Positions 22,720 to 56,637 of a stretch of 56,637 nucleotides of DNA are shown here, one piece after another. The notes under the pieces were generated by a model. It was not told the DNA's origin, did no database searches, and worked only from the letters and a program-made list of their open reading frames with translations. Numbering within the stretch: position 1 is the stretch's first letter; each line of letters begins with the position of its first letter. Source of the stretch: Methanobacteriota archaeon. GTDB taxonomy: Archaea > Halobacteriota > Methanosarcinia > Methanosarcinales > Methanosarcinaceae. The translations under genes and the position numbers were made by a program. The stretch is taken from contig JAENZL010000010.1 of the NCBI GenBank assembly GCA_016841265.1, positions 1 through 56,637 of the forward strand. The letters are read 5' to 3'.

Positions 22720-22732
22720 TTCCCGGAAACAG

Positions 22733-38205: not shown

Positions 38206-41200
38206 ATGCTGGACCAGTTTCTTTCAAATAACCCGAATCCTGTTCTTAAGGTAGATGAAGAGGGGACAATCCTCTACTCGAACAAAGCTGCAAGTCCTCT
38301 GGTAGAATACTGGGGTGCCGGAGAAGGAGAAAAGCTTCCTCAACCGATGGTTAATACGATGAAGGGAATACTTTCTCAAAAAAATCACGAACAACTTGAG
38401 ATTAATACGGAGAAAAAAACGTATTCCTTCACACTCTGCCCCCTGCCGGAGGAAAACTGCGTATATATCCAGGGCTTTGACATAAGTCCTTTCAGGCAGG
38501 CTGAAGAAGAACTGAAAAAAAAGTATGAGGAGCTTGAGGCAAGGGCGGGGAAAAGGAATCTCGAACCCTCAGGGGCAAAAGCAGAGCTTTACGGGAAAAT
38601 TTCCGGGAAAAAACAGACTGATCAGGCCCCACAGGACTGCCCTTATTTTATTGAAAACCTGATAAATACCATTCCCAACCCCGTTTTCTACAAAGACCGG
38701 AACGGCGCATACATAGGCTGCAACGAGGTCTTTGCAAGCAAGATTCTCGGACTTCCCAGAGAAAAAATCATAGGAAAAACCCTTCCAGCCCTTCAAGTAC
38801 CCATCACGGAAGAGCTCAAGGAATACTGCCATAAAGTGGCTCTCGAACTGGCCAGGACCGGGAAAAAACAGGAGCAGGACCTCAAATTTGTCTGTGCAGA
38901 CGGAAAAACAAGAGACTTCATAGTCAACCGGGCTGCATTCAGGGATGAGAAAGGGGAAACTGCCGGGATAGTAGGGGTGATGCAGGACATAACCCAGCGC
39001 AAGAGCGCGGAAGAAGCTCTCAGGAACACCGTGAGTTTTCTGGGAACCCTGCTTGACGACATTCCAAGCCCTGTTTTCCAGAGAGACAAAAAAGGGATTT
39101 ACCTGAACTGTAACGAGAAATTTGCCAACCAGATAATGGGGCTCCCGAAGAAAAAAGTCATAGGAGGATCTTTTGCCGAGTTTCGGAAAAGGTTCCCTAA
39201 AGAACTTGTGGAAATCTACCAGCTGCATGACCAGGAGCTTCTCAGGCAGAGAGGGAACCAATATTACGAGACAAGGGTGGTCTGTGCAGATGGCGTAAAA
39301 AGAGACTTCCTTTTACACAAAGCCGCATACAAAGACAGTTCCGGAAACGTTAACGGAATTGTTGGTGTTATGCTGGACATAACCCAGCGCAAGGAAGCGG
39401 AAGAAATATTCCGGAAAAGTGAGGAAAGGTACCGCATAGCTGCAGAGCAAGCAGGGCAGCTAGTATATGATTACGACATTGTAACAGGGAAAATTGACTG
39501 GGCGGGAGCGATCCCTCAAATAACCGGACACACAGTTGAGGAAATACAGAAAGTGGACCTGGAAGGGTGGATAGACCATATTCATCCCGAAGACCGGGAA
39601 AGGGCCTGGAAAGCCCATGAAGAATGCATGAGTATGGGGGGCAAATTCCTTGAAGAGTACAGGTTCAGGAGGAAAGACGGAAGCTATTTCCATGCGGAAG
39701 ACAACGGAGTCTACCTCAGGGACGAAAGCGGCCAAATGTCCAGGACCATCGGGGTAATAAAAGACATAAGCGAAAGGAAAATAGCCCGGGAAATACTGGA
39801 AAAAAGCGAGGAAAGATTCCGGGCAGTTGCAGAAAGGACCGGGCAACTTGTTTATGATTATGATGTGAGGACAAACCAGAGTTCCTGGGAAGGGGCCATT
39901 GAAGAACTGACGGGATACAGTTATGAGGAGTTCCAGAAATTCATCCCGGAGGTCTGGGCTGAACACCTCCATCCAGAAGACCGCGAAAGGGCTGTTGATG
40001 CCCATAAAAAATGCCTGGAGACAGGGGAAAACTTCCATGAAGAATACAGGCTCAGGAGAAAAGACGGGAGCTACTTCTACGCAGAGGACAACGGCTTTTA
40101 CATAAAAGGCGAAGATGGTAAGGTCTCCAGGGCTCCAGGGGTAATAAAAGACATAAGCGAAAGAAAACTCGCCCAGGAAAAAATAGAAGAAAGTGAAAAA
40201 CGCTTCCGCCTCATTGCCGAGCAGACCGGACAGGGAGTCTATAACTATGATGTTGAGAGTGAACGGTTTTCCTGGGAGGGGGCTATAGAAGAGATAAGCG
40301 GATACCGTGCCGAAGACCCCTGCATTTCTTCCAGGAACCTCTGGGAATCCCATATCCACCCTGAAGATAGTAAGCAAGCAGCGGGGTACTACGAACAGGC
40401 CTTAAAAGAGGGGAAAGAATACCACCAGGAATACAGGATACGCAGAAAGGACGGAAGCTATGCTTGTGTGGAAAACAACGGGATTTTCCTGAAGGATGAG
40501 AAAGGCCGGGTATACCGGATGCTCGGCGCAATAAAAGATATAACGGAAAGAAGACTTGCCAGGGAAGAACTTGAGAAAAGTGAAGAAAGGTACAGGCTGG
40601 CAGCTGAACAGACAGGGCAAATCGTATTTGAGCATGACCTTAAAAATGAAGTTATCGACTGGGTGGGAGCTATCCAGGAACTTACAGGCTATTCTGCGGA
40701 AGAATTCCGGAAATTCGACACTGAAAAATGGGAAGAACACGTTCACCCCGAGGACAGGAAACGGGCCGTCGAAAGGATCACGGAAGCCCTCGAGAAGGGG
40801 GAAAGGTTCGTTGAGGAGTACAGGTTCAGGAGAAAAGACGGGGACTATTTCTACGTGGAGTCCTGTGGGGTAGGGATGCTCGATGAGGAGGGAAAACCCT
40901 TCAGGGCACTCGGGGTGATGAAAGACATTACTGGAGGAAGGCTTGCCAGGGAAGAACTTGAGAAAAGTGAAGAAAGGTATAGGCTGGCAGCTGAACAGAC
41001 AGGGCAGCTTGTGTTCGATTACAATATCGGCACGGGGGAAAGCGACTGGGCAGGAGCTATTGAAAAACTTACAGGATACAGCGTGGAAGAATTCCAGAAA
41101 ATCGGAAAAGACGAATGGATTTCACACGTACATCCCGAAGAGAGAATGCGGGTGGTCGAAAGCATAAAAAAGGCCCTGAAGACCGGAGATCAGATTCAGG

Positions 41201-44200
41201 AAGAATTCAGGTTCAGAAGAAAAGACGGCAGCTATTTCTACGTGGAAGACAGCGGAACGGTTCTGAAAGACAAAAAAGGACTCCCTTACAGGGTCATTGG
41301 AGTGAAAAAAGATATCACTGAAAGGAAACTTGCCCGGGAAAAGCTTGAGAAAAGCGAAGAAAAGTATCGCATCGCAGCTGAACAGACAGGGCAAATTGTA
41401 TGCGACCTTGACATGGAAACCGGAAACATTGAATGGGCAGGAGCCATTAAGGAGCTTACAGGCTATGGTTTTGAGGAATTTCAGAAATTCACCCCCGAAG
41501 TCTGGGTAGAACACATCCATCCCGAAGAACGCGAGTCCGTGCTCAAAAACGTAGAGGGCTATTTAAAGAAAGGGGGAAGGTTCAAACAGGAATTCAGGTT
41601 CAGAAGGAAAGACGGAAGCTATTTTTACGTAGAAAACCGCGGGGTCGTTCTTGAGAATGAAAGAGGACAGATGTATAGAATCCTCGGGTTAACGAAAGAT
41701 ATCACGAAACAGAAACTTGCCAGGGAAGAGCTGGAACAAAGTGAAGAGCGGTACCGGCTTATTTCGGAGAGAACAGGGCTGCTCCTCTATCACGATAGCT
41801 ACGTGGAAGGTTCGATTAACTGGTCGGGTGCTATCACGAAACTTACCGGATACAGCATGGAAGAATTCCAGAAACTTACCGAAGAAAGGTGGCTGGAGCT
41901 AATCCATCCTGAAGACCTCGAAAAGGTAAAGGCGTCCCATAAGAAATCCCAGGAGATAGGGGGAGAGTTCCATGAAGAGTACAGGTTCAGAAGGAAAGAC
42001 GGGAGCTATTTCTTCGCGGAAGATGAGGGTGTCTACTTAACAGATGAAAAAGGATGCATCTGCAAAGCTGTCGGGGTAATAAAGGACATCACGGAAAAGA
42101 AGCTTGCCCAGAAGAAACTGGAGGAAAGCGAGGAACGCTTCAGGGTCGCTGCCGAGCAGACAGGCCAGATTGTCTTTGAACACGACCACATAAATGATAT
42201 ACTTTCCTGGGCAGGCGCTATCACCGAAATTACCGGGTACGGCATCGAGGAATTCCAGAAACTCGAGGGGAAGACGTGGGCTGAGCATATCCACCCCGAA
42301 GACAGGGAAAGGGTCCTTGCAGAACTCAGGAAATTCAAGGAAAAAGACAGCCACTTCCGTGTTGAATACAGATTTAGAAGAAAGGACGGGAGCTATTTCC
42401 AGGTGGAAGACAGCGGGGTCTACCTGAGGAACGAAGAGGGGCAGATCCGCAAGGCTGTAGGAGTTATAAAGGACATCAGCCCGATAAAACTTGCCGCGGA
42501 AAAACTTCAGGAAAGCGAAGAAAGGTTCCGCATAGCGGCAGAAAAGACTGGCCAGCTTGTATACGATTTAAACATCGATTCGGACAATGTGAAATGGGCA
42601 GGAGCAATTGAGGACATTAGCGGTTACACCCATGAGGAAATCCATAAGCTGACGTCCATGAAGCTCTGGAAAAAGCACATTCACCCTGATGACTATAAAA
42701 AAGCAGTCACACATTTTGGAAATGCCCTTAAGAACGGGAGGAGTTTCTGCCAGGAATACAGGTTCAAAAGAAAGTCAGGGGACTATATTTATGTGGAAGA
42801 CTGCGGGACTTATTTGAGAGACAAAGAGGGCAGAGTATACCGGATGATCGGGGTGATAAAAGACATCACGGAGAGAAAGCGAGGAACGGAAAAATTGCGG
42901 AAAAGCGAAGAAAAGTTCCGCCTCGTTGCCGAGCAGACCGGGCAGATGGTATACGATTATGACATTCCGGGGGATAAAATTGGCTGGTCGGGAGCTATCA
43001 AAGAGCTTACGGATTACGAAGAAGAAGACTTTAAAAAGTTAGAAAGTTTGAGGGAATTAAAATGGCTCATACATCCCGATGACCGTAAAAGAGCAGTCGA
43101 TTCATATAAAAAATGCCTGGAGACAGGAGAAAGGTACTGTGAGGAATACAGGCTCAAAAAGAAGGATGGGAGCTGTATTTATGTGGAAAACCGGGGAGTA
43201 TTCCTGAAGGATGAAAATGGACGCATATACAGGATGCTCGGGACAAATAAAGACATTACACAGCTCAAGCAATCCCTTGAAAAAGTACGGGAAAGTGAAG
43301 ATAAGTACCGTTCATTTATGCGAAACTTTAAGGGGATTGCTTTCCAGGGCGATATACACTTCAGTCCGGTTTTCATGCACGGGGCTCTGGAAGAAATCAC
43401 CGGGTACACGGAAGAAGAACTTCTTTCCGGAGCTATCCCCTGGCCCCGGTTAACAGTTCCCGAAGATCGTCACCTGATCTACGAAGATGCAGCGAAACTG
43501 AGAACTATTCCGAATACCCTCATCGAACGAGAATACAGGATAAGGCACAAGAATGGAAAATTACACTGGATCTGTGAACTCATCCAGAATATTTCCGATT
43601 CTTCCGGAAAACCCTGCTTCGTGCAGGGCTCAATCTATGACATCACTGAAAGAAGGGTAGCAGAAGAAACCCTGGCAAGGACGGAGGAGATCCGCAAGAA
43701 GGAGATTCACCACCGGATCAAGAACAACCTCCAGGTAATATCCAGCCTCCTTGAACTGCAGGCCGACCAGTTCAGCGAGGAAAAAGTGGTAGAAGCATTC
43801 AGGGAAAGCCAGAACCGCGTGGCTTCCATGGCCATTATCCACGAGGAACTGTACAGGGCAGGAGATACCGAAACCCTTGATTTTGCAGCATATTTACGGA
43901 AACTGACTTCAGACCTTCTCCGCTCATATACGATCAGGAAAGAGGACGTAAAGCTGAAGCTGGAGGTAGAGGAGATATTCCTGGGAATGGACGCGGCAAT
44001 CCCATTAGGGATCATTGTTAACGAACTTGTATCCAATGCCCTGAAACATGCTTTCCCTGCCGGAAAGAAAGGAGAAATCCACGTCAAACTTTTCCGAAAA
44101 GAAAGTTCAGGAAATAAAAGTATAAGTAACATCACAAATAATAACGATATAAGGAGTAGTAACGAATATAATCAGTTCACATTGATTGTTTCGGATAACG

Positions 44201-44355
44201 GGTTGGGTTTTCCGGAAAGCATTGACTTCACAAATACCGATTCTTTAGGTTTGCAGCTTGTAAATACCCTTGTAGAACAGCTGGAGGGTACGATCGAACT
44301 TGAAAGGAACGGAACAACGGTTTTCAGGATTAAGTTTCTGGAAAGTGGACAATGA
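38206..44355 (+). CDS. Giant multi-PAS sensor histidine kinase (14 PAS domains)
   Basis: 2049 aa, cytosolic. Three divergent PAS domains (about 1-100, 150 and 280) are followed by ten tandem PAS units of the same type, starting at residues 412, 541, 670, 799, 928, 1057, 1186, 1315, 1444 and 1574. The steps are exactly 129 residues (387 bases) eight times and 130 once. Units share AEQTGQ, a W-x-GAI step, HPEDRERA, YRFRRKDGSYF and GVIKDITERK. A different PAS (FMRNFKGIAFQ, about 1704) precedes HisKA_2 (EIHHRIKNN, about 1833) and HATPase_c (about 1925-2049; NELVSNALKHAF, SDNGLGFP). Clear SD GAGGGG. A receiver gene follows 34 bases later and is its likely partner. Confidence 0.92.
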   Translation: MLDQFLSNNPNPVLKVDEEGTILYSNKAASPLVEYWGAGEGEKLPQPMVNTMKGILSQKNHEQLEINTEKKTYSFTLCPLPEENCVYIQGFDISPFRQAEEELKKKYEELEARAGKRNLEPSGAKAELYGKISGKKQTDQAPQDCPYFIENLINTIPNPVFYKDRNGAYIGCNEVFASKILGLPREKIIGKTLPALQVPITEELKEYCHKVALELARTGKKQEQDLKFVCADGKTRDFIVNRAAFRDEKGETAGIVGVMQDITQRKSAEEALRNTVSFLGTLLDDIPSPVFQRDKKGIYLNCNEKFANQIMGLPKKKVIGGSFAEFRKRFPKELVEIYQLHDQELLRQRGNQYYETRVVCADGVKRDFLLHKAAYKDSSGNVNGIVGVMLDITQRKEAEEIFRKSEERYRIAAEQAGQLVYDYDIVTGKIDWAGAIPQITGHTVEEIQKVDLEGWIDHIHPEDRERAWKAHEECMSMGGKFLEEYRFRRKDGSYFHAEDNGVYLRDESGQMSRTIGVIKDISERKIAREILEKSEERFRAVAERTGQLVYDYDVRTNQSSWEGAIEELTGYSYEEFQKFIPEVWAEHLHPEDRERAVDAHKKCLETGENFHEEYRLRRKDGSYFYAEDNGFYIKGEDGKVSRAPGVIKDISERKLAQEKIEESEKRFRLIAEQTGQGVYNYDVESERFSWEGAIEEISGYRAEDPCISSRNLWESHIHPEDSKQAAGYYEQALKEGKEYHQEYRIRRKDGSYACVENNGIFLKDEKGRVYRMLGAIKDITERRLAREELEKSEERYRLAAEQTGQIVFEHDLKNEVIDWVGAIQELTGYSAEEFRKFDTEKWEEHVHPEDRKRAVERITEALEKGERFVEEYRFRRKDGDYFYVESCGVGMLDEEGKPFRALGVMKDITGGRLAREELEKSEERYRLAAEQTGQLVFDYNIGTGESDWAGAIEKLTGYSVEEFQKIGKDEWISHVHPEERMRVVESIKKALKTGDQIQEEFRFRRKDGSYFYVEDSGTVLKDKKGLPYRVIGVKKDITERKLAREKLEKSEEKYRIAAEQTGQIVCDLDMETGNIEWAGAIKELTGYGFEEFQKFTPEVWVEHIHPEERESVLKNVEGYLKKGGRFKQEFRFRRKDGSYFYVENRGVVLENERGQMYRILGLTKDITKQKLAREELEQSEERYRLISERTGLLLYHDSYVEGSINWSGAITKLTGYSMEEFQKLTEERWLELIHPEDLEKVKASHKKSQEIGGEFHEEYRFRRKDGSYFFAEDEGVYLTDEKGCICKAVGVIKDITEKKLAQKKLEESEERFRVAAEQTGQIVFEHDHINDILSWAGAITEITGYGIEEFQKLEGKTWAEHIHPEDRERVLAELRKFKEKDSHFRVEYRFRRKDGSYFQVEDSGVYLRNEEGQIRKAVGVIKDISPIKLAAEKLQESEERFRIAAEKTGQLVYDLNIDSDNVKWAGAIEDISGYTHEEIHKLTSMKLWKKHIHPDDYKKAVTHFGNALKNGRSFCQEYRFKRKSGDYIYVEDCGTYLRDKEGRVYRMIGVIKDITERKRGTEKLRKSEEKFRLVAEQTGQMVYDYDIPGDKIGWSGAIKELTDYEEEDFKKLESLRELKWLIHPDDRKRAVDSYKKCLETGERYCEEYRLKKKDGSCIYVENRGVFLKDENGRIYRMLGTNKDITQLKQSLEKVRESEDKYRSFMRNFKGIAFQGDIHFSPVFMHGALEEITGYTEEELLSGAIPWPRLTVPEDRHLIYEDAAKLRTIPNTLIEREYRIRHKNGKLHWICELIQNISDSSGKPCFVQGSIYDITERRVAEETLARTEEIRKKEIHHRIKNNLQVISSLLELQADQFSEEKVVEAFRESQNRVASMAIIHEELYRAGDTETLDFAAYLRKLTSDLLRSYTIRKEDVKLKLEVEEIFLGMDAAIPLGIIVNELVSNALKHAFPAGKKGEIHVKLFRKESSGNKSISNITNNNDIRSSNEYNQFTLIVSDNGLGFPESIDFTNTDSLGLQLVNTLVEQLEGTIELERNGTTVFRIKFLESGQ
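39439..43314 (+). repeat. Ten in-register PAS-encoding units
   Basis: Units begin at 39439, 39826, 40213, 40600, 40987, 41374, 41761, 42148, 42535 and 42925; all are 387 bases except the last two, at 390. The junction sequences before 40600 and 40987 are almost identical over about 60 bases, showing recent duplication or exchange between units. Elsewhere the copies have diverged. Confidence 0.9.
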
Positions 44356-44389
44356 CCCGGAAACATAGTATGAATAAAGGGGAAATAAG

Positions 44390-44791
44390 ATGAAAAAGGC
44401 AAAAATTCTGGTTGTCGAAGACCAGAACATCGTGGCTCTGAATATCAGAAACAAGCTTAAGAATTTAGGCTATACGGTTCCGGCTACCGCGGCAACCGGA
44501 GAAGAAGCCATAAGGAAAGCTGAACTGACGAATGCTGATCTTGTTTTGATGGACATCATGCTAAAAGGGGATATGGACGGGATTTCAGCGGCTCAGGAGA
44601 TCAAGTCCCATCTGGGGATTCCGATCCTGTACCTGACTGCTTACACGGACGAAGAAACCCTTAGCAGGGCAAAAATGACCGAACCCGAAGGGTATATCTC
44701 GAAGCCCTTTAAAGAAGAAGACCTGCACAGCAACATTGAAATGGCGTTGCACAAACACAAGCTGGAAAGGGTAGAAAAAGAGGCGGAATAA
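44390..44791 (+). CDS. Single-domain response regulator (receiver only)
   Basis: 133 aa CheY-like receiver with no output domain. Acidic pocket E10-D11, phosphorylated Asp D55 in LVLMDIML, T83 and K105 (SKPF) are all present, so it should accept phosphate. A short charged tail follows the domain. SD GGGGA precedes the ATG. It lies directly after the giant kinase. The receiver at 47793 is nearly the same protein. Confidence 0.93.
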   Translation: MKKAKILVVEDQNIVALNIRNKLKNLGYTVPATAATGEEAIRKAELTNADLVLMDIMLKGDMDGISAAQEIKSHLGIPILYLTAYTDEETLSRAKMTEPEGYISKPFKEEDLHSNIEMALHKHKLERVEKEAE

Positions 44792-44830
44792 AATTCCCTG
44801 CACTACTTTTCTAAGTTGATTTGAATTTGA

Positions 44831-45151
44831 CCAAAAGGGAAGATTCACATAAACCTCTGCGGAACGGAAAATATTACCGCGAACCCGGAGGATTGCGGGA
44901 CAGGTTCCGAATGCAGGAAAGAGCAGGGCTCGCAGGCGAAAAAGGATTTGCCGTTAGAAAAGGGTTTACAGTTTACACTAATTGTGGCCGATGACGGGCC
45001 GGGCATCCCGGAAGAAATCGATTTTAGAAATACTAGTTCCCTGGGGCTCCAGCTAGTAAATATCCTTGTTGAACAGATAGATGCCTCCATCGAGCTTAGA
45101 AGAGATGAAGGGACGGGTTTCTCGATCAGGTTCACGGACAAGGGGACGTGA
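44831..45151 (+). pseudogene. Decayed C-terminus of a HisKA_2 kinase (HATPase fragment 1)
   Basis: Open frame of about 106 codons reading PKGKIHINL, a Cys- and Gly-rich linker, then the ATPase G-boxes VADDGPGIPEEIDFRN and SLGLQLVNILVEQ. It matches the last third of the HATPase domain of the neighbouring kinases, but the His box and N box are missing and there is no credible start, so it cannot be an active kinase. A TTG at 44948 could start 67 residues. It lies between the first receiver gene and the third kinase. Confidence 0.75.
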
Positions 45152-45233
45152 AAAATGAAGGTGAAAACCCCTTATTGGATAAATCCCTGTGCTATTTGCT
45201 TGTAAGGCTAATCTGACCACATAAAGAGGACGT

Positions 45234-47249
45234 ATGAATATACTGGAAGCAGGAAGAAAAAAATTAGGGGTAGAGCACTCCCAGCTGATATTCTGGATAG
45301 CCGTTATGGGACTGCTTTACATAATCAGCCTGGAAAACTACCTCCTCTTCCACAGCCTTGTAGAATTGTTCAGCATCCTGGTAGCATACGTGATTTTCCT
45401 GATAATATGGAAATCGAGAGCTCTGCTGGAAAACCGCTACCTTCTGCTTATAGGCATAGCTTACTTGTTCGTCGGAAGCTTTGACCTCCTGCATACCCTC
45501 GCATACAAAGGTATGGGAGTCTTCCCCGAATATGGCTCAAACCTTCCCACCCAGCTCTGGATAGCCGCCAGGTTCCTTGAAAGCGCATCTCTCCTTGCAG
45601 CTCCGCTGCTTTTCAGCCGCATTTCGAGAGACGGGGAAAAGGAGGCAAAATTCCGGGAAAACGGCCTGTTCGCCAGGAAAATTTTCCATATATATACCGG
45701 AATTGCTGTTCTTTTCCTCGTCGCGATTTTCTATTGCAAAAATTTCCCGGAATGCTATATTGAAGGTTCGGGACTTACTCATTTCAAAGTATCAAGCGAA
45801 TACATCATCTCTGTTATACTATTTTGCTCACTGATCCTCTTGCGTACAAAAAAGAACATGTTCGAGCCACACATTTTCAGGATGCTTTCAGCATCCATAA
45901 TCCTTACGATCTTCGGGGAACTGGCTTTCACTTTCTACATTGACGTGTACGGATTTTCCAACCTTATAGGCCACTATTTCAAACTGCTCTCTTTCTACCT
46001 AATCTACAAAGCAATTGTGGAAACAGGATTCGAAAACCCTCACAGCATCCTTTTCAGGGAGCTGAAGCTTAGCGAAGAATCATTAAAAGAGCAGGCAATT
46101 GCCCTCCGTGACGACCAGGGCCTCATTTACAGTATGCTCGGGGTAAAGAGAGATATGCCGGAGCAAGAAACTGCAGTTGGAAACCTGCAAAAAGGAGAGG
46201 AACACTACCTGTCATTCATGCAAAACTTCCAGGGGATCGGGTTCCAGCTTGACAGGAACCTGAAATCGATATTCCTGCATGGGGCTGTAGAGGAAATCAC
46301 TGGTTACACTAAGGAGGATTTCCTTTCCAGGGAAATGGAATGGATCGAAATCATCCTTCCCGAATACCACCCTTTGTTTCTTGAAAAATTGGAAAATGTC
46401 AGTTCCAACCCGGATAGCTCCACCGAACTGGAATACCGGATCAGGAGAAAAGAAGGAGAAATAAGGTGGATCAGGGAAATTATCCGGAAGCTCCCCGGAA
46501 ATCCCGGGAACCAGGGGCAGTACCAGGGTTCGGTTTATGACATCACGGAACGTAAAATGGCTGAAGAAGCCCTGGAAAAAATAGATAAAATCCGCACGAA
46601 AGAAATCCATCACCGGATCAAGAACAACCTGCAGGTGATCTCATCTCTCCTGAGCCTCCAGGCGGAAAAATTCGGAGACGAGGAAGTGCTTGAAGCCTTC
46701 CGGGAAAGCCAGAACCGCGTCATATCTATGGCCCTAATTCATGAGGAACTTTATAAAGGGGACAAAGTAGATACTCTTGATTTTGCAGCCTATTTCCGGA
46801 AACTGACCGCAGATCTTCTCAGTTCATACAGGGTCGGAAAAGATGACATCAGCCTGGAGCTTGACCTTGAGAAAATTTACCTGGGGATGGACACGGCAAT
46901 CCCCCTCGGAATCATTGTCAATGAACTGGTTTCCAACGCCCTGAAACACGCGTTCCCTTCCGGAAAGAAGGGGGAAATCCGCATAAAACTCAGGAGAACG
47001 GAAAATTGTGGAAGATCAGCTGCATTTATAGGGCCTTGTGATGAAAGCGAAGGCTGCAGGAAGAATAAAAATACGTTTACACTTATGATTTCGGACAACG
47101 GGAGGGGAATTCCGGAAGAGCTCGACTTCAGGTGCGCCGATTCTCTGGGGCTCCAGCTAGTAAATATCCTTGTGGAGCAGATCGAGGGCAATATAGAACT
47201 TAATAACAGCACCGGGACGGAGTTCAGGATCGATATAAAGGATAACTAA
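45234..47249 (+). CDS. Membrane sensor histidine kinase (MASE3-like, PAS, HisKA_2)
   Basis: 671 aa. The first ~270 residues hold about seven or eight membrane helices and resemble the MASE3 sensor (FDLLHTLAYKGMGVFP, QLWIAARFLES). Around residue 291 is a short piece, RDDQGLIYSMLGVKRDMPEQE, that matches only the end of a PAS unit of the giant kinase. A full PAS (SFMQNFQGIGFQL, about 324), HisKA_2 (EIHHRIKNN, about 456) and HATPase_c (NELVSNALKHAF, SDNGRGIP) follow. The PAS and catalytic half closely resemble the end of the giant kinase. SD GAGG precedes the ATG. Confidence 0.9.
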   Translation: MNILEAGRKKLGVEHSQLIFWIAVMGLLYIISLENYLLFHSLVELFSILVAYVIFLIIWKSRALLENRYLLLIGIAYLFVGSFDLLHTLAYKGMGVFPEYGSNLPTQLWIAARFLESASLLAAPLLFSRISRDGEKEAKFRENGLFARKIFHIYTGIAVLFLVAIFYCKNFPECYIEGSGLTHFKVSSEYIISVILFCSLILLRTKKNMFEPHIFRMLSASIILTIFGELAFTFYIDVYGFSNLIGHYFKLLSFYLIYKAIVETGFENPHSILFRELKLSEESLKEQAIALRDDQGLIYSMLGVKRDMPEQETAVGNLQKGEEHYLSFMQNFQGIGFQLDRNLKSIFLHGAVEEITGYTKEDFLSREMEWIEIILPEYHPLFLEKLENVSSNPDSSTELEYRIRRKEGEIRWIREIIRKLPGNPGNQGQYQGSVYDITERKMAEEALEKIDKIRTKEIHHRIKNNLQVISSLLSLQAEKFGDEEVLEAFRESQNRVISMALIHEELYKGDKVDTLDFAAYFRKLTADLLSSYRVGKDDISLELDLEKIYLGMDTAIPLGIIVNELVSNALKHAFPSGKKGEIRIKLRRTENCGRSAAFIGPCDESEGCRKNKNTFTLMISDNGRGIPEELDFRCADSLGLQLVNILVEQIEGNIELNNSTGTEFRIDIKDN

Positions 47250-47404
47250 CTTAGTGACTTACTGGTTTATTGATGCGGGGTAAGAACCAGTCTCTATGCT
47301 CAGAAGCAACTTATTTTTAAATCTTCCTGAAAATGGTTATATATTTTTGGGAAACATTGATGAAGAAGTGTAAATTTGTGATAATGGGATGTGGAAAGCA
47401 TAAA

Positions 47405-47749
47405 GCTTATTTCCAACTCCCCGATAAATGCTTTTAAGGGAGGAAAAGGAGGAAAAAATCCTTATCAAATTTTTCCAAACAACCCACAATAAAAATAAAG
47501 TTATAAGTAGAAACAGAAAAATTAATAAAAATGGTAATAGTAAGTACAGTACTCAGTTCTCATTGATCGTTTCGGATGACGGGTCGGAATTTCCGGAAAA
47601 TATTGATTTCAGGGATACAACCTCCAGGGTTACAACTCGTAAACTCCCTGGTGGAACAGCTCGAAGGAAACATCGAACTTGAAAGAAACAAAGGCACTAA
47701 ATTCATTATCCGATTCGGAGGAACTGGGGGACCGAAAAATGGCAGTTAA
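47405..47749 (+). pseudogene. Frameshifted C-terminus of a HisKA_2 kinase (HATPase fragment 2)
   Basis: From about 47405 the DNA follows the end of the giant kinase gene (the SNALKHAF region onward), including its Asn-rich linker and FSLIVSDDGSEFPENIDFRDT. Around 47617 the frame breaks: SLGLQLVN becomes, in another frame, [20 protein letters not shown], which runs to TAA at 47747-47749. The key ATPase Gly in DNGxGFP is also lost (DDGSEFP). It is clearly broken. It lies directly before the second receiver gene. Confidence 0.8.
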
Positions 47750-47792
47750 CTATTCAAAAATAACAGCAATAGAAGAAAACGGGGGTAACAAA

Positions 47793-48215
47793 ATGGGAAA
47801 AGCAAAGATTCTGGTTGTCGAAGACCAGAATATCGTAGCCCTGAATATCAGAAACAAGTTGAAGAACCTGGGATATACCGTACCAAGCACCGCAGCTTCA
47901 GGGGAGGAAGCAATCAGGAAAGCAGAGCTGACGGGTGCTGATCTGGTTTTGATGGATATCATGTTAAAAGGAGAAATGGACGGAATCGAAGCAGCAGGGG
48001 AGATCAAAGCCCGCTTCGGGATACCCGTAATTTACCTTACTGCCTACACGGACAGCGAAACCCTGGAAAGAGCCAAAATGACCGAACCTGCAGGCTATAT
48101 CTCAAAGCCTTTCAAAGAAGAAGACCTGCACAGTAATATAGAGATGGCCCTCCATAAACACAGTGCGGAAAAGGGAGAGGAAGGGCAAGAAGAAGAAGAA
48201 AAAGAAAGTGTTTAA
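47793..48215 (+). CDS. Single-domain response regulator, near copy of the first
   Basis: 140 aa receiver, nearly identical to the one at 44390 through the domain, with the same pocket, phosphorylated Asp (LVLMDIML) and SKPF Lys. The tail is longer and very acidic ([12 protein letters not shown]). The start MGKAKILV at 47793 has GGGGGT upstream; a longer frame from 47679 overlaps the broken kinase and is rejected. Its own upstream kinase is the broken fragment, so it must be fed by another kinase, perhaps the MASE3 one. Confidence 0.9.
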
Positions 48216-48989
48216 GGAAAAAAGTTGAAGACAAAGAGTTTAAGAGGATAAGCAGGGATTAAGTGAAAAATTAATGCGGCAGGAAAATCAAAGTTGCTCT
48301 GGCACGCCCCGCTGCGAACAACGAGTTATGTTAGCAGTGGTTTTTTTCTTGCCACAGCTTCAAATTCCTTAAAGAAGGCAACCTCCCTGGGATTATGCCA
48401 AAAAATAATGCCGCATAAATAGATCACAATCATTCATAATCGTTCAATGCCGGGCTATTGACGCAACACCAGGATAAGGTCTACTTTTTTAGAGCAAAGC
48501 ATATCCGGAGAGGGTATCGGCTGTCTTCATCTCCAACCTTAGAACCTGAATGTCCACTGAAAAATTAGTGCAAAATTTGAATAACCGGGCTGCTTATGGG
48601 AAGATTTCTGACCTGTAAGCTCAGTGATAGAAGACAGCCTCAAATTGGCGAAAGAAACATACTCTGTGGAGAATTTACACAGGTAGTCCAGGGTATTTCT
48701 GGAGTTAACTACGAGGTTTAGTTGTCAGGGTAGTTATTGAAGGCGTAGCAAGGGCCTGCTTTTCCTCAAAGCCTTCAACCTTAGAGGCCTGTAAATCCTG
48801 GTTTCAGAATTCACATTTATGAAATCTGTTTTTAATCCCAAATCCGGGTATTGGACATTTTAAGTGCGGGAATTTAATTTATTCTGCTTCCAGAATTTCT
48901 GAAATACTGTACAAGTTCATAAAAAATTTAAAATAATAACAAATATGTTTACTCTCAAAAATACTTCCTAAATACATAAAAAAATTTAA
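48216..48989. other. Long intergenic region after the signalling island
   Basis: About 770 bases with no supported gene, ahead of the conserved leader of the first surface protein. A T-rich run after GTTAGCAGTGG (about 48341-48350) may end transcription of the receiver. An 8-bp inverted repeat, TTGAAGGC (48737-48744) and GCCTTCAA (48771-48778), with further pairing inside its loop, could form a stable RNA hairpin. No known RNA family is recognised. Confidence 0.45.
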
Positions 48990-49434
48990 AATAATACCAG
49001 AAATATTTTATAATAGGATAACATAAACGATCCAAGTCAACTCAGGAAATTTAACAAAAGGATTAATAAAAATTTATTCAATGAGTTGACATGGCTTAAG
49101 GCCTGAATTCGTCGAAAAGGAGGTTTTAAACTAAAAGTGAATATAATTTTCATTTAATTCATAACAGATTCTAATTACAAAAAACAGAAGCTTCAGCTTC
49201 GTTTCCGAACTTTCTGCTTGATTCACATTTTTGAGAAGTGGATGTACTAAGAGCGAATGCCCTCTAAAAATGCTGTTCCCCGCATAATAAAGGACAGAGA
49301 AAGAGTCGGAAAAATATTACAATCAATTCATAGGGAATTTTCAGAACTCATGGGAATATTATGGAAAACACTCCCTGAGGATCAGAATACTCTAGATTAA
49401 AAAATCCCTAGATAGTCCAACCCAAGGTGATAAA
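48990..49434 (+). promoter_or_regulatory. Conserved long leader of the first surface-protein gene
   Basis: A TATA-like ATTTTATAATAG (49005-49016) stands about 420 bases before the ATG. The sequence between is shared with the leader of the second surface gene: CTCAGGAAATTTAAC, a purine box AGGAGG (49118-49123) followed by TTAAACTAAAA, a small hairpin GAAGCTTCAGCTTCG, and TCCCTAGATAGTCCAACCC just before the SD AGGTGAT. Spacing is also kept. This suggests a regulated 5' UTR. Confidence 0.65.
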
Positions 49435-52400
49435 ATGTTAAAACTGAAGCTAGGAACCCGAAAGCTGATTTCAATTTCAATTTGCTTTTTAATGCTGCTT
49501 GCTACAAGCTCAGCAGCATTAGCAGCATCAGGTGATTTAGCAAATGTTCAAGTATCAAAAGTTAGTGGAACTGTCACGGTAACAAACGAATATGGTACTG
49601 TTGTTTATAAAGGTTCAGACGATACAGATGCTATTGAAGCAGCTATAAAGGCAATCGATAGCGGCGTAATCCTCTTCCAAAAAGGCGAATATAATATCGA
49701 CCGTACACTTCGTTTAAAATCCGATATAACCTTCATTGGAGAAGAAGGAGTAGTATTTGACTGCTTTAAAGGTGTAGCGTTCAGTACCGGAACAGGCGCA
49801 TATTCTTCGTCAACAATATCACTATCAAATGACGTCTCCAAAGGTGATACACAAATTCAGTTGTCGAGTGTTACCGGGTTAAACGTCGGAGATCACGTAA
49901 AAATTTCAGATGATCTCAGTTTCCGCAATCGCAACAAGGAAACTGATTACAAAAACGGAGAGATAGCACAAATAGTTTCTATCAGCGGCAATTCGATTAC
50001 AGTTGATCGTTCTTTGTACGATGATTATACTGTAGCTAGAAACGCCAAAGTAAGAAAAATGGTGATGTTAGAGAATATCACATTTGAAAATATTAATTTC
50101 GTAGGTTCTGGAATCGAGACGAGTTCCACTGCACTCAGTTTCTACGCCACGAAAAATATTACCATCAAAAATTGTGAGTTTTCAGACTTTGGTGTCCGTG
50201 CTACATTTTTCTTAGATTGTTTGGACGTCACAATAGATTCTAACACCTTCAGGCATATTTTCTACACTGGCCTGGGGTATTCGATTCAAATTGTCAATGC
50301 ATGTGACAATTTCATAATAACAAATAACTCCTTCCTGGAATTAGGAAGGCACTATATTGCTGTTGGCGCTAACACAGGGGGCAATTACGAAGACGGACTT
50401 GCCAGACGTTTAACCATATCCGATAACGTCTTTGAAGATTGTGCCGACGAAGCCATAAACACACACTACCCCAATAGGTGTGTGACGACCATTACAGGGA
50501 ATGATATCTACAACTGCAGAAAAGGTATTGAACTAAGCAACGGCGATAGTGTTATAAAAAACAATAATATCGTTGGAAGCTATGTAACTGCAATCGAAAC
50601 ATACGGATCAGGCAGTCATCTTGTAGAAGGAAATTACTTTAACGAAAATTATAGGTCTTTCAGGTGTGAAGCCACAACCGAAATAAGAGGTAATTTATTT
50701 GACAACGGCGGGTATATCTTACCGACAATCAATACCATAATTGAGAATAATACATTCAAGAATTATTCAGGATATATCATCTACGCTGTCGGCTCAAGCA
50801 GTTCATACCTGCAAAACATTGAAATCTCCAATAACATATGTGAAGATTCCCTGACAATGGCAATGAAATTAAACTATGCCAAGAATGTTAACGTAAATAA
50901 CAATAACTTTAGAGGGTATCTTGAATTTGGAAGCTGCGATAATGTAGAAGTCGACGGCAACAGAATAAACTCTCCTGCCTCTTCGGGAGTCAGAGTTATT
51001 GATGCGAAGGGTCCCTACACGATAACAGATAATGAGCTTAAAGCTGATAGTGTAGGAATTTCCCTTGAAAACACCGGAACGTCTTCTATCGGAGAGATAA
51101 TTCAAATCGCACGCAACGCCATTGATGCTCCTAAAGCATATTCTAATGATGACTATTCGAATGTCATCGTAAAAGAAGGAACTCCTGAAATTGGAGACCC
51201 TGCGACAGGAGCACCTGATGTCGAAGACCCTACGACAGAAGATCCTGATGTCCCGACGACTCTTACTGGAATGCAAGATTCCCGCCTCCGTGAAGGTTCC
51301 CCTGACACGGTCTTCAATGACGTTCGTTACATCGACCTTGGAGGTAGAGATGGAATCGGCGCGTACAGAGACCTTGTCATTTTCGACTTAAGTGAATACG
51401 AAGATACCGAACTGATCGAAAATGCGACCCTTTCCCTCTTCTGGTACTACCCTGAAGGAACGGAAAGACCCGAGGACACAGTTGTCGAAATTTACAGGCC
51501 GGAAGCCTGGAACCCCAACTACGTCACCTGGAACAGCAGGGACCTTAATACCCCGTGGACCAATTCCGGAGGAGACTGGTATGACCGGAATAATGCCTCC
51601 CAGGGAAGCACACCCTATGCAACGATTACCATCAAAGGCAGTGACGTTCCTGATAGCAGCTACCATGAACTTGACGTAACCGAACTTGTTAAAGAGTACG
51701 TGAGCGGCGAGTACGAGAATACGGGATTCCTGATCAAAGCCCACACGGAAAGCGGAAACTACATCGCTTTCTACAGCAGTGACTGCGGAATAACGGAATC
51801 TACCCCGAAACTCGATGTGGAACTGAAACCCGAGTCTGAAGATATACCTGAGACTGGAGATACACCTGATGAAACTCTCGTCCTGAGCAACCTTCAGGAT
51901 TCCCGCCTCCGTGAAGGTTCTCCCGACAAGGTATACAATGACGTTCGTTATCTCGACCTTGGTGGCAGAGACGGAGTAGGCGCGTACAGAGACCTTGTCA
52001 TGTTCGACTTAAGCGAATTGGACAATGCCAAACTGATCGGAAATGCGACCCTTTCCCTCTTCTGGTACTACCCTGAAGACACAGAAAGGCCCGAGGACAC
52101 AATTATCGAAATTTACAGGCCTGAAGCCTGGAACCCCAACTATGTCACCTGGAACAGCAGGGACCTTAACACTCCCTGGGTAAACGCCGGTGGAGACTGG
52201 TTTGACCTGAATAATGCCCCCCAGGGCAGCACACCCTACGCAACGATCACCATCAAAGGCAGTGACGTCCCTGACGACAGCTACCATGAAATTGACGTAA
52301 CCGAACTTGTGAAAGAGTACGTGAACGGTGAGTACGAGAATACGGGATTCCTGATCAAAGCCCGCAAGGAAAGCGGAAATTACATGGCTTTCTACAGCAG

Positions 52401-53043
52401 TGATTGCGGAATAACGGAATCAACCCCGAAACTCGATGTAACACTGAAACCCGAACCTGTAGTTCACGTCCTTAATAACCCCCAGGACAGCCGCCTTCGG
52501 GAAGGCTCTCCTGACAAGGTATACAATGACGTCCGTTATCTTGACCTTGGAGGCAGAGACGGGGTAGGCGCGTACAGAGACCTTGTCCTGTTCGACTTAA
52601 GCGAATTAGACGATGCTGAAAGTATCGAAAGTGCGGCTATCTCCCTCTTCTGGTACTACCCGGCCGGAATAGAAAGACCCGAGGACACAATTGTCGAAAT
52701 CTACAGGCCTGAAGCCTGGAACCCCAGCTATGTTACCTGGAACAGCGGGGACCTTAACACCCCCTGGGTGAACGCCGGAGGAGACTGGTATGACCGGAAT
52801 GATGTCTCTCAGGGAAGCACCCCGTACGCAACAATAACCATTAAGGGAAGTGACTTCCCTGACAACGGCTACCATGAGTTTGATGTAACCGAACTTGTGA
52901 AAACGTACGTGAGCGGCGAATACGAGAATACGGGATTCCTGGTCAAAGCCCGCACGGAAAGCGGAAACTACGTCGCCTTCTGCAGCAACGACTATGAAGA
53001 CGAAAATCAGAGACCTGTGATGACTGTATCGGAAAATGTGTAA
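49435..53043 (+). CDS. Secreted beta-helix protein with three disaggregatase-type repeats
   Basis: 1202 aa. Signal peptide 1-31 (ends SSAALAA). Residues about 60-590 form a right-handed parallel beta-helix with many short N-x-F/I repeats, a fold common in polysaccharide-degrading or -binding proteins. Three repeats starting DSRLREGSPD follow at about 609, 815 and 1010, each about 195-205 residues, ending GFLIKARxESGNYxAF; they resemble the repeats of Methanosarcina disaggregatase, which loosens the polysaccharide matrix of cell packets. The helix part is AT-rich, while the repeats are GC-rich. An 805-bp stretch (49949-50753) is identical in the next gene. SD AGGTGAT. The enzyme activity is not proven. 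Confidence 0.85.
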   Translation: MLKLKLGTRKLISISICFLMLLATSSAALAASGDLANVQVSKVSGTVTVTNEYGTVVYKGSDDTDAIEAAIKAIDSGVILFQKGEYNIDRTLRLKSDITFIGEEGVVFDCFKGVAFSTGTGAYSSSTISLSNDVSKGDTQIQLSSVTGLNVGDHVKISDDLSFRNRNKETDYKNGEIAQIVSISGNSITVDRSLYDDYTVARNAKVRKMVMLENITFENINFVGSGIETSSTALSFYATKNITIKNCEFSDFGVRATFFLDCLDVTIDSNTFRHIFYTGLGYSIQIVNACDNFIITNNSFLELGRHYIAVGANTGGNYEDGLARRLTISDNVFEDCADEAINTHYPNRCVTTITGNDIYNCRKGIELSNGDSVIKNNNIVGSYVTAIETYGSGSHLVEGNYFNENYRSFRCEATTEIRGNLFDNGGYILPTINTIIENNTFKNYSGYIIYAVGSSSSYLQNIEISNNICEDSLTMAMKLNYAKNVNVNNNNFRGYLEFGSCDNVEVDGNRINSPASSGVRVIDAKGPYTITDNELKADSVGISLENTGTSSIGEIIQIARNAIDAPKAYSNDDYSNVIVKEGTPEIGDPATGAPDVEDPTTEDPDVPTTLTGMQDSRLREGSPDTVFNDVRYIDLGGRDGIGAYRDLVIFDLSEYEDTELIENATLSLFWYYPEGTERPEDTVVEIYRPEAWNPNYVTWNSRDLNTPWTNSGGDWYDRNNASQGSTPYATITIKGSDVPDSSYHELDVTELVKEYVSGEYENTGFLIKAHTESGNYIAFYSSDCGITESTPKLDVELKPESEDIPETGDTPDETLVLSNLQDSRLREGSPDKVYNDVRYLDLGGRDGVGAYRDLVMFDLSELDNAKLIGNATLSLFWYYPEDTERPEDTIIEIYRPEAWNPNYVTWNSRDLNTPWVNAGGDWFDLNNAPQGSTPYATITIKGSDVPDDSYHEIDVTELVKEYVNGEYENTGFLIKARKESGNYMAFYSSDCGITESTPKLDVTLKPEPVVHVLNNPQDSRLREGSPDKVYNDVRYLDLGGRDGVGAYRDLVLFDLSELDDAESIESAAISLFWYYPAGIERPEDTIVEIYRPEAWNPSYVTWNSGDLNTPWVNAGGDWYDRNDVSQGSTPYATITIKGSDFPDNGYHEFDVTELVKTYVSGEYENTGFLVKARTESGNYVAFCSNDYEDENQRPVMTVSENV
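49949..50753 (+). repeat. 805-bp identical tract, copy 1
   Basis: Compared by eye, this segment has the same bases as 54685-55489 with no difference seen and the same length, while sequence on both sides differs at many positions. It lies inside the beta-helix coding part. Confidence 0.9.
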
Positions 53044-53724
53044 GTTTTCCTTAGTATCGGATTCGTAAAAAAGTTTAAAATACCCGCGCAGAAGGAAAAA
53101 TCCTTTCTGCGCAGGAAATTTATTTGTTTTAATTGTTCCCAACCGGATTTATCAGGACGGGAACATTTTTCCGAACACCCGGACTAAGATATACCCGGAA
53201 AAAAGCTGTTCTGCATTTGATGTTTTTAATTCCTTTACTTAGCTGAAATTACTGTATACTTTCATTTATTTGGGCCTGCTATTCAACAAATATCAGGTAC
53301 TTTTTTTTCATGGTTTTGATCTCTCACTATCCGTGTTTAGTGTTTTTACGGTCCCAATTATATGGAAGGGATTCCTTTGAGCCTTTTCCAAAAATTGGTT
53401 CAATATAAGTATCGGGGCTAGAATTGCAGTTCAACATATCTCCTTCATTTGGGCCATACTCCGGATTTTACGACTTGAGATTTCTTTGAAATAAGACCAA
53501 GAAAAGAAACCTTAAAAAGACCTAATTCAACTAAAAAATCATTTTATACCTTTATTTTCAGGTTATCCGAATCTACTTTTATCGAGCTTACTCTCCTCTA
53601 TTTTTATGGTTCTTTATGTCTATTGCCATTATGGATTTCAGTCCTCCTCTTCTTTATTTCCCGGATATCAGAAGGGACATCTCTTTGGAATATATTTGAT
53701 AACTATAAAAGAAATTAACATAAT
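53044..53724. other. Intergenic region between the two surface-protein genes
   Basis: About 680 bases before the conserved leader of the second gene. It begins with a strong hairpin (53086-53112). The rest is T-rich in parts, with no supported ORF and no RNA recognised. The leader of the second gene follows. Confidence 0.5.
53086..53112 (+). terminator. Hairpin at the 3' end of the first surface gene
   Basis: GCGCAGAAGGA, a short A loop, then TCCTTTCTGCGC pair with one bulged base; TTTATTTG follows. A related hairpin follows the second gene, so it is kept. It may stop transcription or protect the mRNA end. Confidence 0.65.
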
Positions 53725-54167
53725 ACCAAAAATATTTTATAATAGGGTCGCATAAATGCCCAGAGTTCACTCAGGAAATTTAACTAAATAATAAATAGAA
53801 TCTTGTTTGGTGAGTTGCCAAGGCTGAACACCTATACTCATTCGAACAGGAGGAATTAAACTAAAAAAGAAACCATGAATATCCTATAATTTATGACAAA
53901 TTTTCATTACAAAAAAACAGAAGCATCGACTTCGTTCCCACCCATTCCGTACGACTGATATTTTCCTGGACTGAAAATATTCAGAGCGGAAGCTCTCTGC
54001 AAATGCTATTCCCAACAAAAAAGAAGTGGAGAGAGGGGAGGAAAAAATCTTAAATGCAGTTTATATTAAATTTTGAAAATTTATGTAAACTTGCAAAATA
54101 ACCCCAAAAAATTCAATCTACCTTATACCCAAAATTCCCTAGATTGTCCAACCCCAAAGGTGATACA
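53725..54167 (+). promoter_or_regulatory. Conserved long leader of the second surface-protein gene
   Basis: Counterpart of 48990-49434. A TATA-like ATTTTATAATAG (about 53734-53745) lies about 430 bases before the ATG. Shared blocks are CTCAGGAAATTTAAC, AGGAGG (53848-53853) with TTAAACTAAAA, ACAGAAGC followed by CTTCGTT, and TCCCTAGATTGTCCAACCCC before SD AGGTGAT. The AGGAGG box is too far from any start codon to act as a normal SD. Confidence 0.65.
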
Positions 54168-56504
54168 ATGTTAAGAAGGATTCTAGGAACCCGAAAATTA
54201 ATTTCTTACTCAATAATTTGTTCCCTCATGCTGGTTGCGATCAGCTCAGCAGCAGTAGCTGCACCAGATGATTTAGCAGATATTCAAATCTCTAAAGAGA
54301 ATGGAATTGCCACGGTAACTAATGAAAATGGCACTGTGATTTATGAAGGTGCCGATGATGTAGCTGCAATTGAAGCAGCTCTGAACGAGCTCGATAGTGG
54401 CGTCATACTCTTCCAGAATGGGAAATATTCCATAGACCGTACAATTAGTTTAAAATCCGACATCTCCTTTGTTGGAAATGAAGGAGTGGTATTTGATTGC
54501 TTTAAAGGTGTGGCGTTTAGTACCGGAACAGGCTCATATTCTTCGTCAACAATATTACTATCAGATGACGTCTCCACAGGTGATACACAAATTCAGTTGT
54601 CGAGTGTTACCGGATTAAACGTTGGAGATCACGTAAAAATTTCAGATGATTTCAGTATTCGCAATCGCAATAAAACTACTGATAACAAAAACGGAGAGAT
54701 AGCACAAATAGTTTCTATCAGCGGCAATTCGATTACAGTTGATCGTTCTTTGTACGATGATTATACTGTAGCTAGAAACGCCAAAGTAAGAAAAATGGTG
54801 ATGTTAGAGAATATCACATTTGAAAATATTAATTTCGTAGGTTCTGGAATCGAGACGAGTTCCACTGCACTCAGTTTCTACGCCACGAAAAATATTACCA
54901 TCAAAAATTGTGAGTTTTCAGACTTTGGTGTCCGTGCTACATTTTTCTTAGATTGTTTGGACGTCACAATAGATTCTAACACCTTCAGGCATATTTTCTA
55001 CACTGGCCTGGGGTATTCGATTCAAATTGTCAATGCATGTGACAATTTCATAATAACAAATAACTCCTTCCTGGAATTAGGAAGGCACTATATTGCTGTT
55101 GGCGCTAACACAGGGGGCAATTACGAAGACGGACTTGCCAGACGTTTAACCATATCCGATAACGTCTTTGAAGATTGTGCCGACGAAGCCATAAACACAC
55201 ACTACCCCAATAGGTGTGTGACGACCATTACAGGGAATGATATCTACAACTGCAGAAAAGGTATTGAACTAAGCAACGGCGATAGTGTTATAAAAAACAA
55301 TAATATCGTTGGAAGCTATGTAACTGCAATCGAAACATACGGATCAGGCAGTCATCTTGTAGAAGGAAATTACTTTAACGAAAATTATAGGTCTTTCAGG
55401 TGTGAAGCCACAACCGAAATAAGAGGTAATTTATTTGACAACGGCGGGTATATCTTACCGACAATCAATACCATAATTGAGAATAATACCTTCGAAAACT
55501 ACACAGGCTATATCGTATCCTCAGTAGGTTCAAGCAGTTCTTACATGAAAAACATTGAAATCTCCAACAATACCTGCGAAGACCCACTGACGATGGCAAT
55601 GGAATTTGGCTATGCTAAAAATGTTAGGTTAAATAATAACAACCTGAACGGAGATCTCGAATTTAGCGGATGCGATGATGTTGAAATCGAAGGCAACAGG
55701 ATAAACTCTCCTTCCTCTTCAGGGGTAAGAGTTATTGATGCAACTGGCCCGCACTCTATAAGTATTAATGAGATCAAGGCTAGCAGTGTAGGAATTTCCC
55801 TTGAAAATTCCAGGACAACTCCAATTAAAGAAGAAATTATTATTGAAAGCAATGTCATTGATGCCCCTTCAACAATCTCTAATGATGATTATTCGAATGT
55901 CATCATGGATGAAGAAGGGACCCCGGGAACTCTCAGAGTAGTGGATGATTCCCGCCTTCGTGAAGGATCTCCTGACACCGTCTTCAAGAACGAACCCTAT
56001 ATCGACCTTGGAGGCAGAGATGATGTTGGAGGTTACAGGGATCTTGTACTGTTCGACCTGAGCGACTACGAAGATGCTGAACTGATCGAGAATGCGACCC
56101 TTTCCCTCTTCTGGTACTACCCTGAAGGAATGGAAAGGCCTGCGGACACAGTTGTCGAAATCTACAGGCCTGAAGCCTGGAACCCCGATGACGTTACCTG
56201 GAACAGCAGTGACCTTGACACCCCGTGGGTAAATCCCGGAGGTGACTGGTACGACCTGAATAACGTCTCCCAGGGCAGCACCCCCTACGCAACAATAACG
56301 CTCAATGGAAGCGACGTCCCTGACAACAGCTACCATGAACTTGACGTAAGCGGCCTCGTGAAAGAGTACGTAAGCGGCGAGTACGAGAATACGGGATTCC
56401 TGATCAAAGCCCGCACGGAAAGTGGAAACTACATCGCTTTCTGCAGCAGCGACTATGAAAACGGAAACCAGAGGCCCGTGCTGACAATCTCGGAAAAAGA
56501 GTGA
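54168..56504 (+). CDS. Secreted beta-helix protein with one disaggregatase-type repeat
   Basis: 778 aa, paralogue of the previous gene. Signal peptide 1-31 (ends SSAAVAA), beta-helix about 60-570, then a single DSRLREGSPD repeat from about residue 588 to the end. The outer parts differ clearly from the first copy, but 54685-55489 is identical to it. ATG at 54168 has SD AGGTGAT three bases upstream, as in the first gene; a frame reaching back to 54144 includes the SD and is rejected. It probably acts at the cell surface on matrix polysaccharide, by family likeness only. Confidence 0.85.
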   Translation: MLRRILGTRKLISYSIICSLMLVAISSAAVAAPDDLADIQISKENGIATVTNENGTVIYEGADDVAAIEAALNELDSGVILFQNGKYSIDRTISLKSDISFVGNEGVVFDCFKGVAFSTGTGSYSSSTILLSDDVSTGDTQIQLSSVTGLNVGDHVKISDDFSIRNRNKTTDNKNGEIAQIVSISGNSITVDRSLYDDYTVARNAKVRKMVMLENITFENINFVGSGIETSSTALSFYATKNITIKNCEFSDFGVRATFFLDCLDVTIDSNTFRHIFYTGLGYSIQIVNACDNFIITNNSFLELGRHYIAVGANTGGNYEDGLARRLTISDNVFEDCADEAINTHYPNRCVTTITGNDIYNCRKGIELSNGDSVIKNNNIVGSYVTAIETYGSGSHLVEGNYFNENYRSFRCEATTEIRGNLFDNGGYILPTINTIIENNTFENYTGYIVSSVGSSSSYMKNIEISNNTCEDPLTMAMEFGYAKNVRLNNNNLNGDLEFSGCDDVEIEGNRINSPSSSGVRVIDATGPHSISINEIKASSVGISLENSRTTPIKEEIIIESNVIDAPSTISNDDYSNVIMDEEGTPGTLRVVDDSRLREGSPDTVFKNEPYIDLGGRDDVGGYRDLVLFDLSDYEDAELIENATLSLFWYYPEGMERPADTVVEIYRPEAWNPDDVTWNSSDLDTPWVNPGGDWYDLNNVSQGSTPYATITLNGSDVPDNSYHELDVSGLVKEYVSGEYENTGFLIKARTESGNYIAFCSSDYENGNQRPVLTISEKE
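54685..55489 (+). repeat. 805-bp identical tract, copy 2
   Basis: Identical to 49949-50753 as far as can be read by eye. The borders are sharp: bases differ directly before and after, at GATTAC versus GATAAC and at TACATTC versus TACCTTC. Confidence 0.9.
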
Positions 56505-56545
56505 GCTTACCTCAGCATCAGGTCGGTAGAATTACCGAAAATACC

Positions 56546-56572
56546 CGCGCAGAAGGAAGAATCCTTTCTGCA
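56546..56572 (+). terminator. Hairpin at the 3' end of the second surface gene
   Basis: CAGAAGGA and TCCTTTCTG pair around AGAA. It is the partner of 53086-53112, with the outer GCG/CGC pairs partly lost. A T run follows. Confidence 0.6.
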
Positions 56573-56586
56573 CCGGAAATTTTTTT

Positions 56587-56637
56587 AATTTCAACTGTTT
56601 TTAATTTCAACTGTTTTTAATTTCAACTGTTTTTAAT
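56587..56637. repeat. 16-bp tandem repeat at the window edge
   Basis: Three perfect copies of AATTTCAACTGTTTTT, running into the end of the window, so the true copy number is unknown. Confidence 0.85.

Follow-up and report, generated by a model that had tools for sequence, protein, structure and literature searches.

Recent gene conversion and probable exchange of the beta-helix core in a tandem array of putative polysaccharide depolymerases of a Methanosarcinaceae archaeon

Two neighbouring genes, A and B, in a draft genome of the Methanosarcinaceae (G000; 3.65 Mb, 67 contigs) differ clearly at both ends and share a long stretch without a single difference between them. How such a pattern arises, and what it says about the function of the encoded proteins, is the question raised by this locus. 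A sequence-only reading of the window, that is, the whole stretch of 56,637 nucleotides that was analysed, had attributed the identical stretch to recent gene conversion between two paralogues. The tandem array is in fact larger: a third gene, C (G000:C1 57133-58923), which lies just past the end of the window, carries the same type of core. Records related to G000 are Methanosarcinaceae archaeon UBA9310 and the metagenome-assembled genome BL5_bin.6.

For comparison, we used three genomes of the same genus, namely G001 (closed, a single contig of 4.2 Mb), G002 and G003, and one genome of another genus (G018). The DNA identity of G000 to the sister genomes is about 93%. The array of G001 consists of four consecutive genes (a, b, c and d); the flanks of A are orthologous to gene a of G001 and those of B to gene c. 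In G002, four genes are spread over two contigs, while b and d alone of the array genes were found in G003. G018 has two array-type genes with a core of a third type. The features of the locus are listed in Table 1.

Table 1. Features of the array and its surroundings (positions in the window)
Feature	Position	Strand	Remarks
Multi-PAS histidine kinases and response regulators beside the array	38206..48215	+	
Upstream leader of A, part common with B	48976..49104	+	77% identical to 53705-53833; 92-98% between species
Gene A	49435..53043	+	1202 aa; signal peptide, N-terminal cap, beta-helix with insertion (Rider-like) domain, three Disaggr_repeat (DNRLRE) domains
Type II core block in A	49765..50739	+	Left border exact, right border near 50737-50740
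Leading part of the type II block	49765..49948	+	A and B both type II, 16/184 bases differ (8.7%); older layer
Tract in A identical to B	49949..50753	+	Residues about 172-440; recent conversion tract
Disaggr_repeat domains of A	51277..53028	+	Three: 51277-51819, 51898-52440, 52486-53028
Upstream leader of B	53705..53833	+	Counterpart of 48976..49104
Gene B	54168..56504	+	778 aa; layout as A but one Disaggr_repeat
Type II core block in B	54501..55475	+	Same borders; coordinates of A + 4736
Tract in B identical to A	54685..55489	+	
Disaggr_repeat domain of B	55947..56489	+	

An array of putative secreted depolymerases

The proteins encoded by A and B look like secreted polysaccharide depolymerases of the disaggregatase and tailspike kind. 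Their repeats match the Disaggr_repeat profile (PF06848) with 808 and 275 bits (cut-off 33.9), the Pfam Beta_helix match is above the cut-off and tailspike PHROGs are also matched. Gene C has an N-terminal extension and is devoid of Disaggr_repeat modules. Among proteins of solved structure, the sequence of the core is nearest to the tailspike lyase gp49 of LKA1 and to a phage particle-associated lyase. The structure model is confident over about residues 330-580 and poor over residues 111-212 (pLDDT under 50); a fold comparison over 212-580 places it nearest to phage tailspikes, the alginate lyase/epimerase group and RbmB (Z scores of 35 for the Pam1 tailspike, 29 for Sf6 and 27 for RbmB). 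The insertion domain is indicated by a K1-lyase_Rider match just below the cut-off together with the alignment to gp49, in a part where the structure model is of low confidence. Fold likeness does not by itself establish the reaction. These results agree with the matrix-remodelling function that had been suggested for the pair, and give no support to the antigen-like family suggested alongside it.

The putative active site of gp49 is made up of an insertion domain and a groove lined by arginines, and Arg459 is named among the residues lining this groove (PMC5701251). The corresponding R305 of A aligns with Arg459, the remaining catalytic residues falling at the edge of the alignment, and the motif GRHYIA around R305 is invariant in 15 of the 15 copies. 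As in gp49 (4ru4; PMC5701251) and the Klebsiella K1 capsule lyase (7w1c), a beta-helix carries a predicted insertion domain ahead of the putative active-site rungs; unlike these phage and capsule enzymes, A and B are archaeal, cellular and equipped with DNRLRE repeats, with a low sequence identity and a putative reaction. The core is predicted to comprise both this domain and the active-site rungs of a polysaccharide lyase or hydrolase of the tailspike kind.

The array is flanked on one side by the sensor kinases and response regulators (Table 1), and similar kinases adjoin it in G001 and G003. A polysaccharide locus on the opposite strand lies on the other side, with genes for a UDP-sugar dehydrogenase, a DUF354 protein, a DegT aminotransferase, a FemAB-like protein and a polysaccharide deacetylase. 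Polysaccharide genes stand next to the array in G000, G001 and G018, the last having the same kinds of genes. The conserved leader upstream of A and B gave no Rfam match to an RNA element. Taken with the disaggregatase repeats and the biology of Methanosarcina aggregates (PMC12369344), these neighbour genes suggest that the enzymes may cut the cell's own matrix.

An identical tract within a larger replaced block

The longest exact match between A and B is 805 bases, confirmed with its exact coordinates. In a codon alignment the two genes have no difference within this tract, silent sites included (dS 0), against 93/513 upstream (dS 0.46) and 121/453 downstream (dS 1.10). Third positions are identical over 270 consecutive codons, a run that was reached in none of 2000 shuffles, and the chance of finding no difference in 805 bases is ∼10^-32 even at the low divergence seen in the 184 bases next to the tract (16/184). 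All copies agree in many core residues, as functional constraint on the protein would predict. However, purifying selection leaves the identity of the silent positions unaccounted for, and between species no part of the genes diverges more than this core; constraint in place of conversion is ruled out by the silent sites, and we regard it as practically excluded.

Phylogenetic tests gave a concordant result. Trees built for the core and for the flank on either side are in strong conflict, and a single tree is rejected both ways: by AU test, a grouping of A with B is rejected in the left flank (p 1e-48) and in the right one (p 9e-36), and orthology is rejected in the core (delta lnL 563, p 1.5e-7). 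Given sharp borders at which silent divergence falls to zero, and conflicting phylogenies of tract and flanks, the recent gene conversion proposed in the sequence-only reading is well supported. A direction from B to A had been suggested by a c-like codon at 50746, the sole diagnostic codon at the right border; it was dropped when the same codon was found in the b copy of G003. Gene C is 75% identical to the 805-base tract, and no significant conversion run was found in the cores of A versus C, or of a versus d.

The borders of the tract are sharp in silent divergence, but the left one does not mark the beginning of the likeness between A and B. To the left of 49765, A resembles a and B resembles c, and from this position onward A and B resemble each other. 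The identity of A to a and of B to c (G000 versus G001) is 94-100% on the left of the core and 94-98% in the 200-base windows next to it, B being 98% identical to c up to the core border. On the right it is 90-94% for B and c, and mostly 80-96% for A and a. Within the core, the identity of A and B to the copies of the sister genomes is about 63% (59-71% in 200-base windows versus G001), with dS values of 1.8-2.4 compared with 0.07-0.19 in the left flank. All copies seen in the sister genomes (G001, G002 and G003) have a core that we call type I, and the block of A and B was designated type II. Orthologous flanks combined with a drop of identity inside shared borders indicate that A and B are the orthologues of a and c with a replaced core. 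Between A and B, a divergence of 8.7% over the first 184 bases of the block gives way to none in the 805 that follow, which implies that both genes were of type II before, or apart from, the homogenising event. The part of A that matches gp49 (about residues 127-313, R305 included) lies entirely within the swapped block, so that the swap alters the predicted recognition and catalytic part and keeps the conserved motif. The export signal and the putative carbohydrate-binding ends appear to stay in place.

Homogenisation is also seen in the sister genomes. Between a and b the core differs by 2.2% and the right flank by 17.6% in G001, and by 6.1% and 19.2% in G002; between a and c, the core is 11-12% different in the sisters and both flanks 23-27%. 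The left flank of this first pair, a and b, is homogenised as well in G001 and G002, indicating that conversion is not limited to the core. The idea that the core is homogenised while the ends diversify thus stands within a genome, where the cores are kept alike, and fails across species, where the core differs and the ends are orthologous.

An assembler that merged similar copies into one consensus could also produce identical tracts. G000 is a draft in 67 contigs, the tract exceeds usual read pairs and the array of the draft G002 is broken precisely between a and b, its most similar pair. A few SNPs may be masked by such a collapse; the rise at the borders in identity to the orthologues, from about 63% to 94-100%, cannot be explained in this way. 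Moreover, the same pattern in the single-contig genome of G001 argues against draft assembly as its source, and we reason that the assembled path is the only one through the repeat that uses every flank. Assembly collapse therefore seems very unlikely to us.

Origin and polarity of the type II core

The core of C is also of type II, 75% identical to those of A and B and 61-66% to all others. With a difference of 25%, it was not recently derived from the cores of A or B, and its origin calls for either several imports or a spread at an earlier time. As B matches c at 98% in its left flank as far as the border, the donor would have had nearly the same flank combined with a different core. No such donor of the type II core was found in 185 genomes of the order, and neither a leftover type I copy nor a silent type II cassette was found in the G000 genome. 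A viral origin was considered and set aside, the viral contigs scanned containing no relative of the type II core.

To place the switch, we considered the relationships of the genomes at other loci. There, G000 is nearest to G003 (95-97%) and G001 (92-97%), and G002 is more distant (91-93%); a small species tree has moderate support (79 at its best node). Since the two nearest genomes and the more distant G002 are all of type I, the change from type I to type II likely took place on the G000 lineage. Conversely, type II could be ancestral in the array, G001, G002 and G003 having been converted to type I, each or jointly. The core tree is rooted by G018 alone, which has the third core type, so that the core itself does not give the polarity. 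However, with G000 nearer to G003 and G001 than to G002, this scenario requires more changes, and we consider it improbable.

The divergence between G000 and G001 runs unbroken from the core of C across the rest of the gene and the sugar genes after it, as far as about 61.7 kb; beyond this point the identity leaps to 94-98% and stays high across four more genes. In the divergent stretch after C, G000 has a dehydrogenase and a DUF354 protein. At the same place G001 has a DUF354 protein only 59% identical, a flippase and a WecB-like epimerase, the latter two named from a reading of the sequence and without a profile match. The depolymerase core and variable polysaccharide genes are thus physically linked by the divergent stretch. 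A strict link between core type and sugar genes was not supported among the four genomes, as G002 combines type I cores with a UDP-sugar dehydrogenase 91% identical to that of G000. The flippase of the G001 type is found in G002 at 90% identity on another contig, and in G003 only a 73% paralogue was found. An apparent in-frame stop in a flippase of a second locus proved to be the normal end of the gene.

This island at C, extending into the adjoining sugar genes, looks like the import of a block, and it bears on whether the tracts of A and B were already identical in the donor and came with the donor array, without any conversion in the G000 lineage. That both genes are of type II across the same block is also compatible with such a double import. 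Against it, A and B retain their own orthologous flanks to the same codon, and the step from 8.7% over the leading 184 bases to zero in the next 805 places a border inside the type II block, so that a later homogenising event is required, in the G000 lineage or in the donor. We regard double import as unlikely.

A modular history and its possible meaning for matrix dispersal

Altogether, we consider it likely that the locus is an array of self-matrix depolymerases in which the catalytic core has been swapped between alternative types and homogenised by conversion, the ends being inherited by orthology. The ends would descend in the ordinary way and the beta-helix core would evolve as a separate part; its alternative types are deeply diverged, and in G000 it has been replaced in all paralogues. 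The type II core may have come from a close relative whose flanks were nearly identical, entering by homologous recombination. Gene conversion between paralogues would then have homogenised it, the 805-base tract presumably being the latest event. Less certainly, selection might keep the cores of one cell alike because the enzymes would have to cut its own matrix polysaccharide, the probable biosynthesis genes of which adjoin the array and differ between species. Whether conversion switches all paralogues jointly, as in an archaeal self-matrix type system comparable to capsule serotypes, is a tentative extension to which we give less than even credence.

In bacterial capsule loci, deeply diverged central alleles lie between conserved flanks, and recombination in the flanks switches the type. 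The array shares with them the alternative central alleles and conserved flanks, but in the array each of several depolymerase paralogues contains the exchanged piece within the gene, and all of them have switched type. A survey of concerted evolution in prokaryotes has been published (PMC6053082), and long-lasting conversion restricted to one domain is described for mtrA-1 and mtrA-2 of Methanococcales and Methanomicrobiales (PMC4632066). Both cases concern tandem paralogues of methanogens that are homogenised in one domain and not in the remainder; in mtrA the homogenised region is described as a shared MtrA domain, whereas here it has been switched to another type in all paralogues, with orthologous ends.

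Regarding function, the disaggregatase of Methanosarcina mazei is described as cleaving methanochondroitin (Xun 1990, Osumi 2008, as cited in PMC12369344). Like A and B, it is a secreted protein of the Methanosarcinaceae with Disaggr_repeat (DNRLRE) modules and a likely depolymerase of the own matrix; for A and B the activity is putative, and their core matches tailspike-type beta-helices. In Vibrio cholerae, the beta-helix polysaccharide lyase RbmB disrupts the biofilm matrix of its producer (PMC11637428); it shares the fold of our model and acts on a different polysaccharide. In the open-licence papers searched, we found no report of core exchange in a disaggregatase, nor of a depolymerase array whose paralogues had all changed their core type in a coordinated way. 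Domain-limited conversion is already known, and the coordinated switch of core type looks new.

Two evolutionary histories can be separated within single genes, and all array members of G000 differ in catalytic-core type from those of the sister genomes, at a DNA identity of about 93% elsewhere. The genes for methanochondroitin biosynthesis are not known (PMC12369344). If the cores are indeed matched to the matrix, the array would offer a handle on how methanogens living in aggregates tune their dispersal enzymes to their own polysaccharide, and its neighbour genes would be candidates for the synthesis of this genetically uncharacterised matrix polysaccharide.

Gene number in the array and the fate of gene b

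The tandem array of putative depolymerase genes comprises three genes in the present genome (G000) against four in the sister genomes G001 and G002 (window 48215-56637 and beyond, compared with G001), and gene b is gone from the G000 array by loss or fusion. In the sister genome G003, gene b carries an in-frame stop, past which the remaining frame stays open; the TGA means either that this copy is broken or that the base calls are wrong.

Features in and around the depolymerase array
Feature	Location	Description
Gene b, G003	L026 (record DUKH01000193)	TGA in frame within beta-helix part
Gene C, G000	L004 9134-10924	N-terminal extension of about 180 residues
Long leaders 5' of A and B	window 48900-49434 and 53700-54167	
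Very long multi-PAS histidine kinases	window 38206-47249	adjoin array
Sugar genes adjoining array	G000:C1 59371-61790	directly past window; compared with G001 and G002
Second polysaccharide locus	G000:C29 about 18000-26000; G001:C1 about 917000-926000; G003:C81	

Leaders and gene C

The leaders of A and B are conserved between species at 92-98%, on par with the coding ends, and neither matched any Rfam family. The extension of gene C likely includes membrane helices and the gene lacks carbohydrate-binding repeats; its product is possibly a membrane-anchored version of the array protein.

Genes flanking the array

The adjoining polysaccharide genes form a patchwork between the sister species: the DUF354 proteins share 48-68% identity across them, and four genes next to the patchwork show 94-96% identity between G000 and G001. 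Flippase and DUF354 paralogues are also carried by the second polysaccharide locus, found in sister genomes too. Among the kinases, certain PAS stretches are unusually divergent from G001 (69-73%), which suggests recombination between their PAS repeats.
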